A stretch of 64,000 nt of DNA, from positions 372,001 through 436,000 of the forward strand of contig NZ_SMCS01000004.1 of NCBI RefSeq assembly GCF_004342265.1, given 5' to 3'. Below the pieces are notes generated by a model. That model was not told where the DNA came from. It was given only the letters and a program-made list of their open reading frames with translations, and searched no databases. Within the stretch, counting starts at the first letter, position 1, and every line of letters begins with the position of its first letter. Position numbers and translations under genes: made by a program. This DNA is from Luteibacter rhizovicinus (GTDB lineage Bacteria; Pseudomonadota; Gammaproteobacteria; Xanthomonadales; Rhodanobacteraceae). Below, in pieces: positions 3,883-43,087 of this stretch.

Positions 3883-4069
3883 GCATTGACGCGGTGTCCG
3901 GTCACGCCTACGCAGAAATCATCGACAGCTTTAGTCAATTCCAGCTTCCACCGACCGTGCTCCCTCGTTCCTCCGCCGAAACCCTTAGGCGGCAGACGAA
4001 TTCTCCTGGAGCCCGCCGGACGTCGCCGCAGCGACCGGTATCGGACTCGGAACGAAAAGGACTTGAAGC

Positions 4070-5425
4070 ATGGCACTGACCATCCACACCAACGTGAACT
4101 CGCTCAACGCGCAGCGTAATCTCAACTCGACACTGAGTAAGCTCAATATGGCGAGCGCGCGCCTCACCTCCGGTTTTCGCATCAATAGCGCAAAGGACGA
4201 TGCGGCCGGCCTCGCCATTTCCACGCGTTTTACGACGCAGATCATGGGTCTGTCGCAAGCGACGCGTAACGCGAATGACGGCATCTCGCTCGCGCAGACC
4301 GCCGAGTCCGCGCTCGATGAGGTGACCAATAACCTGCAGCGCATTCGTGAGCTGGCTGTGCAGGCAAGTAACGGAAACTATTCCGATACGGACAGGAGGA
4401 CGCTCAACGAAGAAGTAAAACAACGGCTCGCGGAAGTGACCCGGATCGCAACTCAGACCAACTTCAATGGCATGAAGGTCCTCGACGGAAGCGCACAGAA
4501 TCTTTCGTTTCAGATTGGTGCGAACGTAGGTGAAGTGATTACCGTAGGCATTAATCAGGGTATGCGCGCCAATCAGGTCGGCGCCCTTGCGACGGGCGCG
4601 GTGGATCTCTCCACCGTGTTCGGCGCACGGCCTGCCTTCAATGGCTCGCAGGCAGTGTCCACCGACTGGACTGCTGCGAATGGTGCGGGTCTTGGTACGC
4701 AGACATATGATGGCGTGGATGTCGACTGGACGACGTATACAGGAGCGACCGCCGACGATGCGAAGATTTTTCTCCAGGGAAAACTGGGTAATGGTTATCA
4801 GGTATCGGTCAATGCTGCTGACACCACTACCTTGGACATCCGGCGGCCCGCTGGCAACTCGGCGAAGATTGCTCTTGCCGCTGGCGACTTGTCCGTCGCG
4901 GTGGGTGGTGGCACGTCGTTCGACATCGTTGGTACGTTCAAGTCCACGCAGGATGTCGCCGATGCGATCAACAGCAAATCGCAGTCCGGTATCTCCGCGT
5001 ACGTCGGTACAAATGGGGAACTGCGAATTTCGTCGGGGCAGGATATAACCGTCGGAGGCGCGCAGGCGACGGCACTGGGCTTCAATGCAGCGTATGCGGT
5101 CAACGCGTCCGATACGCTCGCCGATGCTTCCGTGCTTACCCGCGATGGCGCGAATGAAACCATCAGCCGCGTAAATGCCGCACTGGAGGCGGTGAGCGCA
5201 TTGCGCTCCGATCTCGGTGCCATACAGGCGCGCTTCCAGTCAACCATCGGCAATCTCCAGACCATCTCGCAGAACCTGGCCGATTCGCGCGGCGCGATTC
5301 GCGATGCCGACTTCGGCGAGGAGTCGTTCAATAAGACGAATGCGATGGTTCTTCAGCAGGCCGGCATCGCCATTCTCTCGCAGGCGAATGCGAGTCAGCA
5401 GATGGTACTCAAGCTGCTCGAGTAA
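4070..5425 (+). CDS. fliC1: Flagellin, paralog 1
   Basis: Filament subunit of 451 aa. The N-terminal D0/D1 helices (MALTIHTNVNSLNAQRNLNS, then LNMASARLTSGFRINSAKDD) and the C-terminal helices (ending SQANASQQMVLKLLE) are canonical. The central part carries a flagellin-IN-like block (FDIVGTFKSTQDVADAINSK) shared with the next gene. It starts with AAAGGA about 8 bp before ATG. Compared with paralog 2, the C-terminal helix has substitutions (EESFNKTNAMVL in place of QETANMSSAQIL), codon choice is less biased toward C/G-ending codons, and no convincing sigma-28 promoter is visible upstream, so it is probably the minor flagellin. The gene symbol is descriptive only. Confidence 0.94.
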   Translation: MALTIHTNVNSLNAQRNLNSTLSKLNMASARLTSGFRINSAKDDAAGLAISTRFTTQIMGLSQATRNANDGISLAQTAESALDEVTNNLQRIRELAVQASNGNYSDTDRRTLNEEVKQRLAEVTRIATQTNFNGMKVLDGSAQNLSFQIGANVGEVITVGINQGMRANQVGALATGAVDLSTVFGARPAFNGSQAVSTDWTAANGAGLGTQTYDGVDVDWTTYTGATADDAKIFLQGKLGNGYQVSVNAADTTTLDIRRPAGNSAKIALAAGDLSVAVGGGTSFDIVGTFKSTQDVADAINSKSQSGISAYVGTNGELRISSGQDITVGGAQATALGFNAAYAVNASDTLADASVLTRDGANETISRVNAALEAVSALRSDLGAIQARFQSTIGNLQTISQNLADSRGAIRDADFGEESFNKTNAMVLQQAGIAILSQANASQQMVLKLLE

Positions 5426-35818: not shown

Positions 35819-36273
35819 ACGATGTGCGCCAAGCGGTACATGGCGGGCAGGGCGCGTGGCTCGGCTTCGTTCTCAAGGAACAGCATTACGCGGTCACGCT
35901 GGCCAGCGTGCGCGAGGTTATCCGTTGCGGCGACGTCACGCCGGTGCCGGGTGCACCTGACGACGTCCTCGGTATCGTCAATTTGCGTGGGCAGATCGTG
36001 CCCGTGCTCGACGGGCGACGCCGTTTCGGCCTGGCCGGCTGCGTCGCACCGGACCGGGAGGACGCCCAGCGCGTCGTCGTCTTCGACGACGAGGGGTCGA
36101 TCGTGGGTATGCGCATCGATGCCATCGGCGATATGCTTGATTTCAATGCCAGCGATATCGCGGTGCCGCCCCCGGGCCGCGCCAGTCGCAGGGACGACCC
36201 GGTCAGCGGCGTGGTCACGCGGCACGACGGTTTCATCGCGCTCGTCGACGTGCAGCGCCTCTGCCGTGTGTGA
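35815..36273 (+). CDS. cheW: CheW, chemotaxis coupling protein
   Basis: 152-aa SH3-like adaptor between chemoreceptors and CheA. ATG 35815 overlaps the parP stop (ATGA). The sequence is full of CheW hallmarks: WLGFVLKEQHYAVTLASVRE, GAPDDVLGIVNLRGQIVPVL and VGMRIDAIGDML. It is followed by a GTGA overlap with the DUF2802 gene. Confidence 0.94.
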   Translation: MNDVRQAVHGGQGAWLGFVLKEQHYAVTLASVREVIRCGDVTPVPGAPDDVLGIVNLRGQIVPVLDGRRRFGLAGCVAPDREDAQRVVVFDDEGSIVGMRIDAIGDMLDFNASDIAVPPPGRASRRDDPVSGVVTRHDGFIALVDVQRLCRV

Positions 36274-36320
36274 CGGCTAGCGAATCGCGTTCATTCGCGC
36301 GGCTCATGCAGGAAACGCCC

Positions 36321-36725
36321 GTGAACAACATGCTTGCTTACATCCTGATTGTCTTCGCCGTACTGCAGATGCTCGGCTTGCTGCTGCTGTGGCGCAGGCT
36401 CGACGCCAGAACGCCTCTCACGCAACCGGCCGCCTCCGCCCCCGTGCCCGATGCCGAGCCCGAACGGCGCATCGTCGGTGTGGACGAAGCCGCGCTCATC
36501 GGTGTGCTGAAGCGTCTGGAGATTCGCCTCGGCGATATCGAAGACCACGTCCGCCACGCGCCGACCATGCCGAACGAAGTAGGGCAGACCGCCGACCGCG
36601 CCTACACCCTGGCACAGCGCCTTGCCCGCCAGGGAGCTACCGCGCAGCAGATCGCCGAGACCTGCGGCCTTTCGCTGTCGGAAGCGGAACTGCTACACCG
36701 CCTGCACGCAGGCAACCCGTCTTGA
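36321..36725 (+). CDS. DUF2802 protein, chemotaxis operon end
   Basis: 134 aa from the GTG at 36321 (AGGA 8 bp upstream; MNNMLAYILIVFAVLQMLGL). A GTG at 36270 coupled to cheW would add 17 residues. One N-terminal membrane helix is followed by a charged cytoplasmic part with a short helix (VDEAALIGVLKRLEIRLGDI) and a C-terminal HTH-like region (GATAQQIAETCGLSLSEAEL). This family ends the motCD-parCP-cheW operon in Pseudomonas. Function unknown. Confidence 0.8.
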   Translation: MNNMLAYILIVFAVLQMLGLLLLWRRLDARTPLTQPAASAPVPDAEPERRIVGVDEAALIGVLKRLEIRLGDIEDHVRHAPTMPNEVGQTADRAYTLAQRLARQGATAQQIAETCGLSLSEAELLHRLHAGNPS

Positions 36726-36955
36726 GCACACGCTAGCTCAACAGCGCCGCTGTAGGAGCGCGCTTGCGCGCGAAAGCCAACAAGGCGAGGAAGACGGACT
36801 CCCACCTCCGCAAGCCCGGTGTCCTGGCTGCGGATGGCGAACTCATCATCTCCGCTTCGTTGGCTTTCGCGCGCAGGCGCGCTCCTACAGAGAGCTTGCT
36901 GGTCGCGGAATGACCAGCGCAACGCAAGTCGTTGCCACACAAGTGCGAATCGCAG

Positions 36956-37001
36956 TTATCCACATGCTTATGCAGCGACTATCCACATGCCCTGTGGATA
37001 T
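36956..37001. promoter_or_regulatory. DnaA-box-like cluster, unit 1
   Basis: TTATCCACA at 36956-36964 is a perfect DnaA box. CTATCCACA (36979-36987) and, on the opposite strand, ATATCCACA (36993-37001) each differ by one base. Three boxes lie within 46 bp. Confidence 0.6.
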
Positions 37002-37230
37002 CGCGCATTGCCGGAGTTTGCTTTCTGTGGGAGCGCGCCTGCGCGCGAAAGCCAACAGGGCGAGGAAGACGGATGCTCACCTCCGCAAGCCCGGTGTCCT
37101 GGCTGCGAATGGCGAACTCATCATCTCCGCTTCGTTGGCTTTCGCGCGCAGGCGCGCTCCTACAGAGAGCGTGCTGGTCGCGGAATGACCAGCGCAACGC
37201 AAGTCGTTGCCACACAAGTGCGAATCGCAG

Positions 37231-37276
37231 TTATCCACATGCTTATGCAGCGACTATCCACATGGCCTGTGGATAT
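37231..37276. promoter_or_regulatory. DnaA-box-like cluster, unit 2
   Basis: The same three boxes as in unit 1, 275 bp downstream: TTATCCACA at 37231-37239, CTATCCACA at 37254-37262 and TGTGGATAT at 37268-37276. Confidence 0.6.
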
Positions 37277-37505
37277 CGCGCATTGCCGGAGTTTGCTTTC
37301 TGTGGGAGCGCGCCTGCGCGCGAAAGCCAACAGGGCGAGGAAGACGGACCCTCACCTCCGCAAGCCCGGTGTCCTGGCTGCGAATGGCGAACTCATCATC
37401 TCCGCTCCGTTGGTTTTCGCGCGCAGGTGCGCTCCTACAGAGAGCGTGCTGGTCGCGGAATGACCAGTGCAACGCAAGTCGTTGCCGCACAAGCGTGCAT
37501 CGGAC

Positions 37506-37551
37506 TTATCCACACGCTTATGCAGCAACTATCCACACACCCTGTGGATAG
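37506..37551. promoter_or_regulatory. DnaA-box-like cluster, unit 3
   Basis: TTATCCACA at 37506-37514, CTATCCACA at 37529-37537 and TGTGGATAG at 37543-37551. The boxes are kept although the bases between them have diverged from units 1 and 2; the last box ends 11 bp before the tamB stop. Confidence 0.6.
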
Positions 37552-37562
37552 TTGGCGGTGGA

Positions 37563-40500
37563 CTATCTCTCGTACCGGTAGTTGAGGCTTGCGCGATTGA
37601 AGTCGGTGGCGCTCTGGGCTTCGAAGTTCCAGCGGTGGCTCAGCAGGTAGCGCAGGGTAATGACCTGGCCGGGATCGAACAGGCCAACGCCATAGCTGAG
37701 GTAGAGGCGTGGCGACAGGTACTTGCCAACGGTGAAGGCCGAACCGCCGCCAAGGGCGTCGTTGTTCGATACGCCGATATCGTCCACACCGATTTTCGAT
37801 CCGACGCTCTTCGCCAGCAGATCGCCGGCCGCCGAGCCCAGCGCCTGTGCGGCCGCGCCGACCATGTTGCCTTCGCCGCCTTTCACCTGCGAAAGAGGTT
37901 TACCCGTGACGAGATAGGAGAGCGCATCGGACTGTTCCATGACCGGGTTGGAGAACACCGTCAGGATAGGACGCCGTGCCGTGCCCGAAACGTACAGACC
38001 GACCTTCTGGCCGTCGTTGATCGTGGCGTTGGGATTGAGTGTGCGCGTCGCGCGGATATTGATGCCGGGATTGTCGATTGGCGTGCTTGCGAACAATAGC
38101 TGGCCCTGCTCGATGCGCAGGTCCTGCCCATAGGCTTTGTAAGTACCGTCGACGCCGATCTGCCCCTGGCCCGTAGTGACGCGGCCAGGACGTTCGCGTA
38201 CATCGAGTGTTCCGGTGATGCGACCGTCGATACCAAAGCCGACGAGATGGACATGCTGCCCAAGGTCGACGCGCAGGTCGACCGTGATGGGAAGCGATTC
38301 GACTATCTGTTCCTGCTGTTTCTCATCCACGACCACGACATCGGACGATGCCTTGGTCGCACCGGCACCGGGAAGGCGCTCGACGTTGACGTCTGCCATG
38401 TCGACACTGAGCTTGCCGGTGACATTCGTCCCTTCGCCGCTCTGGATGATCTTGATGTCGGGGGAGATCACCGCTTTCGCGGCGGGGATGTCGACCGCGG
38501 TGAACTTGCTGCCGCTGATGCCGATCTGCGTGCTCGCACCCTTGCCGAGACCTGCCGTGCCGGCGATCGTCAGGTTGCCGTCGCCCGATTTAACGGTGCC
38601 ATCGATGCGATACGTCGTTGCGTCGGAGGTCGTCAGCGTGACGCGACCGTCCTTCAGCTTCAGTCCCGCACTGGGCACTTCGGCGGCGAAGTTGCCGAGA
38701 ACGGCCTGGCCGGTAATTGCGGGTTGGGCAACCGTTCCCCCCATCTGGAAGCTGCCGTCGAGCGCGCCCTTCACCTCGGCGATTTCGCTGGTGAACAACT
38801 CGACGAATGCGAGGTTCTTCAGGTGTACCGAAACGCTGCCGCTCAGAGCCTGTTGCGCACCGGCGATGCCGACATTGCCGTCGAGCGTGCCGCCGTCGTT
38901 AAGGCTGGCGCGCACGGTGACGCGTTGATTGCCTGGTGTCAGCTGGGCATTGGCTGCGAGATTGTCGTAGACGAGTAACGGCTGGTCGGGATGATCCGAA
39001 TAGGCGATCGACCCATGCGTGGATGTGATGTTCGCCTGACCGCTGAGAGCACCGGCGGCAGTGCGGCGTACATTGCCATCGCCTTCGATACTGCCTTCTG
39101 CCCGCATCGGCAGATCGGACGAGCCCGCCGCGGTGAGCAGCATGGCCACGGGAATATGGCGCACACGGTAGTTGCCGTCGAGATTGCCGGCCTTGTCCTG
39201 TTTTGCGGCGACGCAAACGAGGGGATCGCCCGCGGTAAGACAGAGATCGCTCATGCTCGCGGCGCCGTTGTTCCAGCTGAGCTGGCTGGCATTCTGCAGA
39301 TGCCAGCGGGGCAGACCCTGCAAATCGAGGTTCAGTGTCGACAGCGTACCGGTCCACGACGTGTCGCGGAGCGAACCGCTGAGCGCGATATCCGCCGAAA
39401 GCGGCTTGCCCTTCGCATCGACGGTGAGCTGGTGCTTTTGCTGGTTTCCGTTGGCGTGTACAGCGATGCGATCGAAGTGCATGCCGGAGGTCGATACGCC
39501 ATTCGCATCGATGGCGACATTGCCGCCCGGCTGGCTGATGTCGGGCACGTCCGCATCGACATGCAAGGCATCGAGTTTATGGTCGGCATAGACCACCGAG
39601 TTTCCTCGGATGTTCGCCTTCACCGCCAGTTTGGGCCATTTGCCGCGTACGCCGATGTCGCCCTCGATTCGTCCGCCCGCGTCGGGCAGCCAGTCGCCGA
39701 GGGACGCGATGGCGAGTTTCAGGTCGGCGTCGTTGGCGGTATCGCCGCGCGCGTCGAGTCGGATGCTGCTGCCGCCGGAGGCGAGGTCCAGGCGACCGTT
39801 GACGACCTCGCCCGGCTTCAACGTCAGCGTGCCATTGCCGCGCAATGCGCGTTTGCGCAATGTACCGTCCAGCTTGCGCAGGTCCAGCGTACCCAGGGGA
39901 CCGTTTGGCGACATGTTGCCATCGGTCGACAGATCGAGGTTGAGCGCGCCATCCCATCCGGCCAGCAACTGGCCAGGATCGAAGTTGTTGCCGTTGACCT
40001 GGAGTTTCCATGCCAGCTGCGGATCGAGGATCAGCGTTCCCTTCGTGTCGAGGCTGCCCTTCGGTTGTTTCAGCGTCAGCGCACGGAGTTCGATGACCTT
40101 CGGCGTGCCATCGAGATCGAGCGCGAGATGCTGCGCATGGCCAGGCGGTCCGATGTCGACGGCGCCGTCGGCGTGGAATGTTTCGGCGCTGCCGCGGACG
40201 GCGAGTCCGCCGGCGCTTGCCAGGTCCTGACCGGCTATCTCTGCCGGTATGAGCACGTCTTTCCAGTCCAGACGCAGATCGGCCGATATGGGCTTGGCGT
40301 CCAGCTGGACGGTGCCCCTGGCCGTGAGCGCGCCCTTGAACTGAGGCGAGCCCACGCTCAGCTCATCGAGCGTCAGGCGCTTGTACTCGTGGTCGAAATT
40401 CGCGCGCAGCGGAGCGAGATGGACGGTATAGGCATTGAGGCCGATATCGCCGGATACGTCCGCGCCATAGCGATCGCCATGACCTTGCAGCGACAGACCC

Positions 40501-41309
40501 AGCGACGCGATGGCGCTTTCGCCCATCAGGGGTTTCGGATCGAAACGCGGTGCGTCGATGCGGCCGGTCCATGCGAAGTCGCCGCTTTGCACCAGATCGG
40601 CGTTGATCTCGGCAACCATCGGCAACGTCAGCCCGATGACCGTGTGCGCTTTTTTCCCGTCGCTATGCGCTTCGATCTGGCCGGCGTAGTCGACATCGCC
40701 CACTTTCCATGCGAACGACGCCTTGCCGTCGCCGCTGTAACCGCGACCGACCGCAAGCGTGCCGTCAAGATCCGCATGGCCGGCAGGTGCCTTGAGGGCA
40801 AGCTGGCGCAGCTCGACGCCCTTGCCGGTCCATGAGCCGATCAGGTCGAGCGAGTCCGATTCGAAAACGGGTTGATTCGCCTGCGTCACCTTGACGTGAC
40901 CCACGTGTACGCGGTCGAGCACGATGTCGAGCGGCGGTGTCAGCGAGAAGGGTTGCGATGGCGTCGTGTCGGGTTCGCTGGGGCCAAGCGCGACGTCGAT
41001 GCCATCCGCGCTCAGGTCGAGCACGTGCGCGCGCTTGCGCAGCAAGGGCAGGATACGCAGATCGAGGTGCGCCTTCGCGACCTTGACGTCTATGCCCTTG
41101 CCGTCCACATAGCGAACGCCGGCAAGATCGAGCGGGCCGGCCAGACGCCCCTCGGCGTGCTGGACGGTCAACGCGCCACCGGTGAACGCGGTCGCGCGCG
41201 CCAGCGCGAATCGAAGTCCCGCGCCAGTGCCCAGCACCCACCATGCGGACGCGACGACCAGCAGCAGGATGACGGCAAGCGCCATGAGTACGCGGAGGAA
41301 CCATTTCAT
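37563..41309 (-). CDS. tamB: TamB, envelope lipid-transport/translocation bridge protein
   Basis: 1248-aa AsmA-like protein anchored in the inner membrane and spanning the periplasm. ATG 41309 (MKWFLRVLMALAVILLLVVA) is chosen because GAGGAG lies 7 bp upstream; a GTG at 41324 is also in frame. One N-terminal membrane helix is followed by beta-rich repeats with the alternating pattern of the TamB groove. The C-terminal DUF490 region (VTTGQGQIGVDGTYKAYGQD, GLFDPGQVITLRYLLSHRWN) ends in an aromatic beta strand. It pairs with tamA, whose stop lies within its ribosome-site region. Confidence 0.93.
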   Translation of the reverse strand: MKWFLRVLMALAVILLLVVASAWWVLGTGAGLRFALARATAFTGGALTVQHAEGRLAGPLDLAGVRYVDGKGIDVKVAKAHLDLRILPLLRKRAHVLDLSADGIDVALGPSEPDTTPSQPFSLTPPLDIVLDRVHVGHVKVTQANQPVFESDSLDLIGSWTGKGVELRQLALKAPAGHADLDGTLAVGRGYSGDGKASFAWKVGDVDYAGQIEAHSDGKKAHTVIGLTLPMVAEINADLVQSGDFAWTGRIDAPRFDPKPLMGESAIASLGLSLQGHGDRYGADVSGDIGLNAYTVHLAPLRANFDHEYKRLTLDELSVGSPQFKGALTARGTVQLDAKPISADLRLDWKDVLIPAEIAGQDLASAGGLAVRGSAETFHADGAVDIGPPGHAQHLALDLDGTPKVIELRALTLKQPKGSLDTKGTLILDPQLAWKLQVNGNNFDPGQLLAGWDGALNLDLSTDGNMSPNGPLGTLDLRKLDGTLRKRALRGNGTLTLKPGEVVNGRLDLASGGSSIRLDARGDTANDADLKLAIASLGDWLPDAGGRIEGDIGVRGKWPKLAVKANIRGNSVVYADHKLDALHVDADVPDISQPGGNVAIDANGVSTSGMHFDRIAVHANGNQQKHQLTVDAKGKPLSADIALSGSLRDTSWTGTLSTLNLDLQGLPRWHLQNASQLSWNNGAASMSDLCLTAGDPLVCVAAKQDKAGNLDGNYRVRHIPVAMLLTAAGSSDLPMRAEGSIEGDGNVRRTAAGALSGQANITSTHGSIAYSDHPDQPLLVYDNLAANAQLTPGNQRVTVRASLNDGGTLDGNVGIAGAQQALSGSVSVHLKNLAFVELFTSEIAEVKGALDGSFQMGGTVAQPAITGQAVLGNFAAEVPSAGLKLKDGRVTLTTSDATTYRIDGTVKSGDGNLTIAGTAGLGKGASTQIGISGSKFTAVDIPAAKAVISPDIKIIQSGEGTNVTGKLSVDMADVNVERLPGAGATKASSDVVVVDEKQQEQIVESLPITVDLRVDLGQHVHLVGFGIDGRITGTLDVRERPGRVTTGQGQIGVDGTYKAYGQDLRIEQGQLLFASTPIDNPGINIRATRTLNPNATINDGQKVGLYVSGTARRPILTVFSNPVMEQSDALSYLVTGKPLSQVKGGEGNMVGAAAQALGSAAGDLLAKSVGSKIGVDDIGVSNNDALGGGSAFTVGKYLSPRLYLSYGVGLFDPGQVITLRYLLSHRWNFEAQSATDFNRASLNYRYER

Positions 41310-41320
41310 GCCGGCGCTCC

Positions 41321-43087
41321 TCACAGGTCGGGCCCGATGACGACATGCAACTGCACGCCGTGTTCGTTCTTGTCGTGGACGGGTACGCCCAGATCGACAC
41401 GGACCATGCCGACCGGCGAAAGCCAGCGCACGCCCAGACCCGCACCGATGCGCGGGCTGTAGTCGGTACCGGTGAAGGCATTGCCCGCATCGACGAACGC
41501 GGCCATGCCCCAGTTGCGTGTGAAGTAGTGCTCCACTTCGGTACTGGCAACCAGCAGGCTTTCGCCGCCGATGACCCGGTCGTACTGATTGCGTGGGCCG
41601 ATGCTCTCGAAGCTGTAGCCGCGTACGGAACGGTCGCCGCCCGCGAAGAAGCGTAGCTGCGGGGGCAGGGCGCTGAAGTCGTTGGTCCAGGTATGGCCGG
41701 CGGTGCCGCGAAGGATCAGGCGGTTACGGCCCCAGAACGACTGGATCCATTTGGCATCGGCGATGACCTCGCTGAAGCTGGCATCCGAAAGCAGGTTGCC
41801 GACGGTGCTGCGGCCCACGAGGTTGAGCGACCAGCCATGCCGCACGAAGATCGGGTTGTCGCCCGATTTGCGCGACAACGATATCTCCGGATAAAGCAGC
41901 GTGCTGCGGCCGTGTTCGATGCCGAACGTGTTGTCGGGTTCGCCGCCGCGCTTGCCGACGGTGAATGTGCCGGACAAGGCGTTGATGCCGATGGTCCGTG
42001 TCCAGCCGTGCCACAGCCGGGTTTCGTTGGCCACCAGCTGCAACGTGCGCGACTGCGATGTCGTCGTGTCCGCGTCCCGGTAGTTGGCGCCGAAGTTGAA
42101 ACTGCGCTGGTTCGGGCCAGGCATCGGGATCTGGTACAGCGTGGAAATCGTCTTGAGCTTCTGCGCCACGACCAGTTCGTTCTTCCACTTGTGGCCGCGA
42201 TCGTTCACCCAGCGCTTCTCGATACCACCACGCAGACCGGCCCCCGTATCCGTGCCGAAAAACGGACCGCCGGTATAAATCGTGCGTTTCGCGGGCGCCA
42301 ATTCGACGGTGACATCGACGACACCGTTCTTCGCCTCGTCGATGTCGGGCATGACATTGACCACGGAGAAATAATCGGCGCCGTTCAGCGACTGCTGAAG
42401 CAGCAGCAGATTGTCCTGTGCGAAATAGTCGCCGCTCTTGAACGGCACGTAGCGGTCGAGGAAGCTCTCGCGGAACTGCGAATCCTTGAAGTGCACCTTG
42501 CCGAAGCGATAGCGCTGGCCGGCGGTCCAGGCGAGCGACACGCTGGCTTTTTTTTCGGCGCGATTCACTTCCACGCGATGGACGGTCAGCTTCGCGTCGA
42601 GGAAACCCGTAGCGGTCAGCGCCGCGCCTATCGCGTCGCGCGACGCGTCGTACTGACCGTCGTTGAGGGGCTGGTCCTTCAGCTTCTCGGCGGCGCGGAT
42701 CGCCCGGCGCACGCCCGGCACTTTCGCGGCTTCTTCGTCGATATCGACTTTGACGGAAGAGATGACGACCGGTGCGCCGGTCTTGACGTGCAGGGTGACG
42801 ATCCAGTCGTTACCTGCCTGCTTGATATCGCCGTCCGACGTGGCCTCGTAATAGCCATACGGTCGAAGGGCGGTCTGGACCTGATCGGGTGCTTTTTCGT
42901 ACAGGCGCCGCGCCTGGGCGGCCGAGATGTCGCGCGTGGCGTACTGACTGAGTTCCACGCCGGCGACGACGGCGCCCTTGAGCGGTTCCTCGACGCCATC
43001 GACGACGAGCTTTACTCCCGCGTGTGCGAGAGCGGGGAGAAAGAACCACGGCAACAGCAGCAGTCCATGGCGTCTGGTTCGGCGCAT
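41321..43087 (-). CDS. tamA: TamA, Omp85-family outer-membrane protein
   Basis: 588-aa outer-membrane protein. Signal peptide MRRTRRHGLLLLPWFFLPAL ending at AHA, three POTRA domains to about residue 250, then a BamA-like barrel. Barrel landmarks include LRFFAGGDRSVRGYSFESIG, the lid-loop signature RGY/F, and the last strand GMVRVDLGVPVHDKNEHGVQ. It works with TamB in autotransporter and lipid transport. It is the upstream gene of a two-gene operon on the minus strand. Confidence 0.94.
   Translation of the reverse strand: MRRTRRHGLLLLPWFFLPALAHAGVKLVVDGVEEPLKGAVVAGVELSQYATRDISAAQARRLYEKAPDQVQTALRPYGYYEATSDGDIKQAGNDWIVTLHVKTGAPVVISSVKVDIDEEAAKVPGVRRAIRAAEKLKDQPLNDGQYDASRDAIGAALTATGFLDAKLTVHRVEVNRAEKKASVSLAWTAGQRYRFGKVHFKDSQFRESFLDRYVPFKSGDYFAQDNLLLLQQSLNGADYFSVVNVMPDIDEAKNGVVDVTVELAPAKRTIYTGGPFFGTDTGAGLRGGIEKRWVNDRGHKWKNELVVAQKLKTISTLYQIPMPGPNQRSFNFGANYRDADTTTSQSRTLQLVANETRLWHGWTRTIGINALSGTFTVGKRGGEPDNTFGIEHGRSTLLYPEISLSRKSGDNPIFVRHGWSLNLVGRSTVGNLLSDASFSEVIADAKWIQSFWGRNRLILRGTAGHTWTNDFSALPPQLRFFAGGDRSVRGYSFESIGPRNQYDRVIGGESLLVASTEVEHYFTRNWGMAAFVDAGNAFTGTDYSPRIGAGLGVRWLSPVGMVRVDLGVPVHDKNEHGVQLHVVIGPDL

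Follow-up and report, generated by a model that had tools for sequence, protein, structure and literature searches.

DnaA-box elements resembling DnaA-reactivation sites form a tandem array in Luteibacter rhizovicinus and recur across Xanthomonadales

A compact DnaA-box element, which resembles the DnaA-reactivation sites (DARS) of Escherichia coli in the geometry of its boxes, occurs in three tandem copies in Luteibacter rhizovicinus. The window analysed is a stretch of 64,000 nucleotides (contig NZ_SMCS01000004.1, positions 372,001 to 436,000) from a genome of 4,468,206 bases in 22 contigs, here G000. DnaA-reactivation sites have been characterised in E. coli, where there are at least two. 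Judged from its sequence, the role of the element is likely DnaA regulation, and our preferred reading, to which we give a probability of about 0.52, is that it would be a compact, amplified DnaA-reactivation site of the DARS type. An earlier note on the same DNA had proposed either DnaA titration, as at datA, or reactivation, as at DARS. The geometry of DARS was largely found, that of datA was not.

The array covers positions 36750..37551 of the window on the forward strand. Tandem Repeats Finder gave a period of 275 bp, 2.9 copies and 95% matches, in agreement with the 275-bp repeat described earlier, and unit 3 stops at its own last DnaA box. The array lies between the convergent ends of a DUF2802 gene (36270..36725, +), which ends 24 bp before it, and tamB (37563..41324, −), which ends about 12 bp beyond it. 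Every unit consists of a 144-bp REP/inverted-REP pair (BIME; 36751..36894, 37026..37169 and 37301..37444, all +) and an adjoining DnaA-box element of about 105 bp. The three elements (36898..37002, equal to G000:C4:408898-409002; 37173..37277; 37448..37551; all +) matched our profile R1 with 87.3, 87.7 and 85.3 bits, respectively. This profile uses sequence only. Of 47 non-redundant copies (51 were found), 42 went into it, the other five having been omitted without a rule. An Rfam search of the array gave no RNA above threshold, and its six matches to MIR1437, an animal miRNA, reached 44.7-55.1 bits against a cut-off of 168. These sub-threshold matches fall on the REP hairpins (window 36742-37458, both strands). 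They were taken as chance likeness, and a regulatory RNA was dropped as a candidate.

The array contains nine sites that match TTATCCACA with at most one mismatch, at 36956, 36979, 36993(−), 37231, 37254, 37268(−), 37506, 37529 and 37543(−). Over the whole window, 11 such sites were counted where 4.14 (sd 1.69) would be expected, and none of 100 shuffles reached 11. A three-box template scored 25/27 at all three units, compared with a maximum of 18 in 40 Markov-random windows. The count of nine boxes in the earlier note was right for the near-perfect sites, which exceed chance, but missed a fourth, weaker box-like site, TTATGCAGC, in every unit. It begins 12 bp downstream of where the first box begins and brings the number of box sites in the array to 12.

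In copy 1, three boxes lie on the forward strand: box a (TTATCCACA, an extra box; 36956..36964), box b (TTATGCAGC, the counterpart of DARS box III; 36968..36976) and box c (CTATCCACA, the counterpart of DARS box II; 36979..36987). Box d, the counterpart of DARS box I (36993..37001, −), is convergent with c across a gap of 5 bp. Boxes a-d start at 37231, 37243, 37254 (+) and 37268 (−) in copy 2 (37231..37276), and at 37506, 37518, 37529 (+) and 37543 (−) in copy 3 (37506..37551). The layout of the element is fixed: a, 3 bp, b, 2 bp, c, 5 bp, and d in opposite orientation, with a Fis-consensus site at −55. Aligned copies form a unit of about 105 bp, in which the dyad TGGTCA-N5-TGACCA is followed by a conserved AACGCAAGT stretch and then by the boxes (TTRTCCACA-N3-TTATGCAG(N)-N2-GTATCCACA-N5-TGTGGATA). 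The Fis-consensus site GNNYANNNNNTRNNC is found with one mismatch at 36901..36915 (+) in copy 1, and its 15 letters are identical across copies (37176-37190 and 37451-37465, +). With at most one mismatch, the consensus occurs at the single offset of −55 in 55 of 57 elements, 39 of them exact (chance 0.012 and 0.001, respectively). Furthermore, a Fis-like gene was present in all ten genomes tested, with 39-50% identity (G000:C2:467132-467365 in the source genome). A conserved ACGCAAGTCGTTG stretch (36922..36934, 37197-37209 and 37472-37484, all +) is IHF-like with two mismatches in copy 1.

In 12 genomes of 10 genera, picked for their known R1 matches, we scanned for convergent TATCCACA/TGTGGATA pairs within 30 bp, and all 24 reported pairs had a gap of either 5 bp (18) or 28 bp (6, boxes a-d; possibly under-counted, since the scan seems to give a single match for each start).

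These features can be set against the E. coli sites. In strain MG1655, the core of DARS1 reads TTATCCACT-N5-TGTGGATAA-N3-TGTGTATTA, and that of DARS2 TTATTCACC-N5-TGTGGATAG-N3-TGTGAAGAA. The two are described as equal in spacing, with box I opposite to boxes II and III (PMC5742627), and the head-to-head pair I-II as characteristic and essential (PMC10380432). Boxes d, c and b of the element would be the boxes I-III of one such core, of which b (TTATGCAGC) is weak. From the comparison of I-5-II-3-III in DARS with d-5-c-2-b-3-a in the element it follows that the convergent pair with its 5-bp gap is common to both; a third box stands in tandem behind II in each. They differ in the gap between II and III, which is 2 bp in the element and 3 bp in DARS1 and DARS2, and in the additional strong box a, absent from the E. 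coli core. The element resembles DARS2 in carrying a predicted Fis site, and differs from DARS in that this site is placed 55 bp from the first box, within the 105-bp unit. The comparison with DARS2 is weaker for IHF, as the consensus fits the conserved stretch with two mismatches in 21 of the 57 elements and with fewer in none. According to one report, conservation of Fis and of the DARS2 core is specific to those gamma-proteobacteria that are relatives of E. coli (PMC4245941), and a review mentions DARS-like sequences in many proteobacteria (PMC10380432). An open-literature search, partly judged by title, returned no paper linking DnaA-reactivation sites to Xanthomonas or Luteibacter.

Profile R1 gave no homology to the E. 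coli sites (DARS1 core E 0.26; DARS2 core E 2.2, with a best value of 0.37 in the DARS2 stretch), and the DARS cores scored no better than datA (E 0.33) and oriC (E 0.22). Because R1 does not detect the E. coli DARS, we class the element as DARS-like by its geometry.

The same convergent-pair scan revealed a second site, beside priA, in 11 of the 12 genomes and once per genome (G000:C2:591341-591361 in the source genome, at 1542 of locus L185; the others in L186-L195). PriA was identified by model in three of these loci and by tblastn in all eleven. The E. coli core spacing III-N3-II-N5-I is present in 11 of 11 loci, with a third box of 1-3 mismatches. In ten closed genomes the site lies at 0.17-0.37 of the arm from dnaA, closer to oriC than the window element. 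It is a candidate for the classical DARS of the order. The convergent 5-bp pair is common to both kinds of site, as is a third box; the priA site, however, is single-copy with a II-III gap of 3 bp, whereas the window element, with 2 bp, would be a multi-copy second type.

A search of related genomes for the unit, which had been suggested as a check, found the element in all 23 Luteibacter genomes. They have 3-10 R1 matches each, often in tandem, in contrast to the two single sites of E. coli, and the 17 clusters of the closed Luteibacter genomes hold 1-6 copies per locus. Within the order, 213 of 348 genomes and 56 of 94 genera had a match at E≤0.01 under stricter filters, and 135 genomes had none under these filters; the E-values are rough, and a few genomes are expected to match by chance at this threshold. 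Among 36 closed genomes, two (G371 and G389) were without a match, and up to 13 matches were found per genome.

On a scale from dnaA (0) to the opposite point of the chromosome (1), clusters of the element lie at 0.65 on average (75 clusters listed, in 33 closed genomes), with means of 0.47 in Luteibacter (n=17) and 0.70 in the others (n=58). These values run from mid-chromosome to the terminus side, as do those of the E. coli DARS (0.66 and 0.41 of the arm). The clusters come from the matches listed, from which some weak copies and the single match of G379 are absent. Arm positions are those of closed genomes, the source genome being a draft, and the lengths of G348, G050 and G407 are rounded. 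A KS test of the positions gave p 5.9e-5, which is only indicative, because the clusters of related species are not independent. We would propose, tentatively and as an idea that may well fail, a second class of DARS throughout Xanthomonadales. This would be a tandemly amplified 105-bp cassette of a Fis site and four boxes, mostly in the origin-distal half, which stands beside a single-copy classical priA DARS and whose copy number sets the rate of DnaA recharge.

The arrays could instead act as a DnaA sink or as a site of DnaA-ATP hydrolysis, in the manner of titration or of datA, and hold or inactivate DnaA after their replication. The many strong boxes per locus, with 12 sites in this array, and the variable copy number would fit such a role, and DnaA-box-dense DNA near the E. 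coli origin is argued to titrate DnaA (PMC12371093). However, according to that same work titration is favoured by boxes near oriC, and only five of the 75 listed clusters belong to the origin-proximal 30% of the arm (within 0.3). Moreover, titration should not require a fixed convergent geometry. Like the element, datA is a cluster of DnaA boxes outside oriC and includes a double box, TTGTAAACA-N3-TTATCCACA. Its close convergent pair, though, has N3 instead of N5, it is ori-proximal (0.20 of the arm), and it is reported to depend on IHF (PMC4585315), for which the match in the element is weak. Overall, we regard a sink or datA-like site as rather unlikely. The E. coli datA region is about 6.5 kb from miaA, and one Luteibacter array is beside miaA; homology to datA by way of this synteny was considered and dropped, because neither box spacing nor profile matches.

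Less probable again is a regulatory or chromosome-organising site that is bound by DnaA and Fis independently of the nucleotide state of DnaA, with a part in local transcription or as a landmark of the nucleoid. Double DnaA boxes 2-3 bp apart are presented as the general form of site to which DnaA binds in E. coli, promoters included (PMC11317965). At an E. coli double box in that study, gaps of 3 and 2 bp bound DnaA alike and a gap of 4 bp did not, and removal of a single base pair from the 3-bp gap caused no loss of binding. The E. coli sites it names (polA, purH, nrdA and others) have tandem boxes 2-3 bp apart, as in the element, yet they are mostly promoter-linked.

The neighbouring genes bear on this reading in both directions. 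Three loci, defined by their flanking genes, are common to several species among the 17 Luteibacter clusters. The miaA/peptidase S46 locus was found in five closed genomes with 1-4 copies, and with one copy in G069, which belongs to another genus; miaA was confirmed beside all six of these arrays. The array lies upstream of the miaA start, as a regulatory site might. A locus with a YkuD or DAO gene and a gene of succinyl-CoA-ligase type was found in six genomes with 2-6 copies, and a phosphoglycerate-kinase locus in four with 1-4 copies. The remaining two clusters, in G101 at 809 kb and in G133 at 1.2 Mb, match no other. At the DUF2802-tamB array the flanking gene ends converge, which argues against promoter control there, and at the YkuD/DAO locus they converge as well, according to a GC-frame gene call. 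Since unrelated genes adjoin the different copies, the element would have no single target gene.

Another question is whether the element is a passenger of the REP pairs. When one unit was compared with its own genome, it matched the three units and at least 39 further places (40 of 211 candidates scored). Of these 39, 38 match only the first ~145 bases, which is the REP pair, and C3:527827-528087 is the sole place that matches both halves (72% identity). Used alone, the second half matched the three units plus two diverged copies within its own genome, and it had copies in each of the 11 other Luteibacter genomes sampled. No box element was present within 1.5 kb in 26 of 27 other REP-pair loci that were fetched, and a REP origin of the boxes was therefore rejected. 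Conversely, a REP core lies within 200 bp of 21 of the 58 copies in closed Luteibacter genomes, in six of the 17 clusters, the other 11 clusters being without one. The nearest relative (G153) has the element at the orthologous site, where the 3.4 kb inspected contained no REP core. Only the 144-bp half fits the definition of a REP/BIME, with REP palindromes in inverted pairs that are scattered through the genome. Because most REP places are without the element and the element is found without REPs, the two are separate repeats that were amplified jointly in the source genome. The boxes had been described as lying inside REP elements; they lie in the other half of the unit.

REPs within 200 bp of elements were seen in L225, L228, L232, L233 and L238 (YkuD/DAO locus), in L223, and also in L089 (Luteibacter anthropi). 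Five of the six REP-associated Luteibacter clusters represent one locus. REPs may be drawn to arrays of the DnaA element.

The boxes change far less than the sequence around them. Units 1 and 3 differ in 1 of 35 box letters and in 12 of the 73 other letters of the element, so the claim that the boxes were kept while intervening bases changed held up. The orthologous DUF2802-tamB site of G153, with its single element, differs from unit 3 in 1/35 box letters and 33/73 others, and from units 1 and 2 in 2/35 box letters each, with 36/73 and 35/73 others. Free variation of the boxes in relatives would have spoken against the earlier note; at this one orthologous site we saw the opposite, with the boxes kept and the rest replaced. 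Likewise, for 20 copies of the element at the miaA locus of six genomes, mean diversity is 0.114 within the boxes and 0.417 in the stretches between boxes. The left half of the element, which is free of boxes, gave 140 distinct matches when searched by itself. In 127 of these, no fewer than 26 of the 32 box letters fall in the right places, compared with a mean of 8.3 and a maximum of 17 for shuffled right halves. This test is partly circular, because the profile copies were chosen by their boxes and many loci were fetched by box or element searches. Among the 13 matches below the cut, at least five have the same boxes one base off, and one (L189) is the priA site. Taken together, these comparisons indicate purifying selection on the DnaA boxes, as the earlier note had suggested.

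The same data make it very improbable that the element is a repeat, selfish or passive, which spread along with REP elements, its box likeness being merely inherited sequence. Copies are indeed both tandem and dispersed, some have REPs nearby, including those of L. anthropi, and the DUF2802-tamB site carries the element in only two of the 23 Luteibacter species; in the other 21, R1 gives no E-value below 0.69 within about 1.5 kb of the DUF2802 gene. Against this stand the near-constant boxes at the one orthologous site, the three loci common to several species, and the absence of the element from nearly all fetched REP-pair loci. An accessory or ancestral replication origin, of which DnaA boxes and Fis-like sites are reminiscent, was rejected as next to impossible. 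Here dnaA is on another contig (G000:C6:234344, the array being on C4), the lowest 50-bp G+C is 0.46 in the array against 0.28 in the stretch after dnaA, so that neither an adjoining dnaA nor an AT-rich unwinding stretch is found, there are up to 13 matches per genome, and the literature contrasts the head-to-head pair with oriC (PMC10380432); the view that this is no obvious oriC is thereby supported.

If the element is a DARS-type reactivation site, molecules of DnaA-ADP on boxes c and d, which are convergent, would meet head to head, as proposed for DARS boxes II and I. Box b, together with a, would recruit further DnaA in a double-box arrangement, and Fis, perhaps with IHF, would shape the complex. 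In the source strain, a REP pair probably came to lie beside a single ancestral element at the DUF2802-tamB site, and both were then triplicated together. The copy number of the element may tune its output, and a multi-copy, tandemly amplified form that differs in copy number between related species would allow one to ask directly whether the number of sites tunes initiation timing. For assays, the element offers a defined 105-bp DNA. A 253-aa frame at G000:C4:324115-324525 matches the DnaA model weakly; we take it to be probably Hda, which would provide the DnaA-inactivation arm.

An exact pattern scan of a collection of 84,980 species returned 42 stretches, from Luteibacter, Rhodanobacter, Dyella, Lysobacteraceae/Lysobacter and a MAG named only Proteobacteria, and, outside the order, from four delta-proteobacterial records and one Cloacimonadota record. 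The exact Fis-consensus dyad was found at the same offset in the delta-proteobacterial records L102, L105 and L119, with one mismatch in L098 and with four in L084. In addition, R1 matched L119 over its full length (E 9e-8). In these Geobacter-type genomes, the four-box layout with the Fis-consensus dyad lies at 5850 in L102, at 5835 in L105 and at about 1986-2031 in L119. The element is adjoined by mazG in all three, and MurJ was confirmed in L102 and L119. Because layout and dyad recur between murJ and mazG in such genomes, the cassette may predate the order Xanthomonadales by far.

A Lysobacteraceae MAG (L079) carries two opposed copies, at 3992-4091 (E 2e-5) and 4110-4210 (E 4e-11), which are positioned past ftsH and folP, on the upstream side of miaA. 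This placement suggests a long-standing residence of the element in the folP-miaA region.
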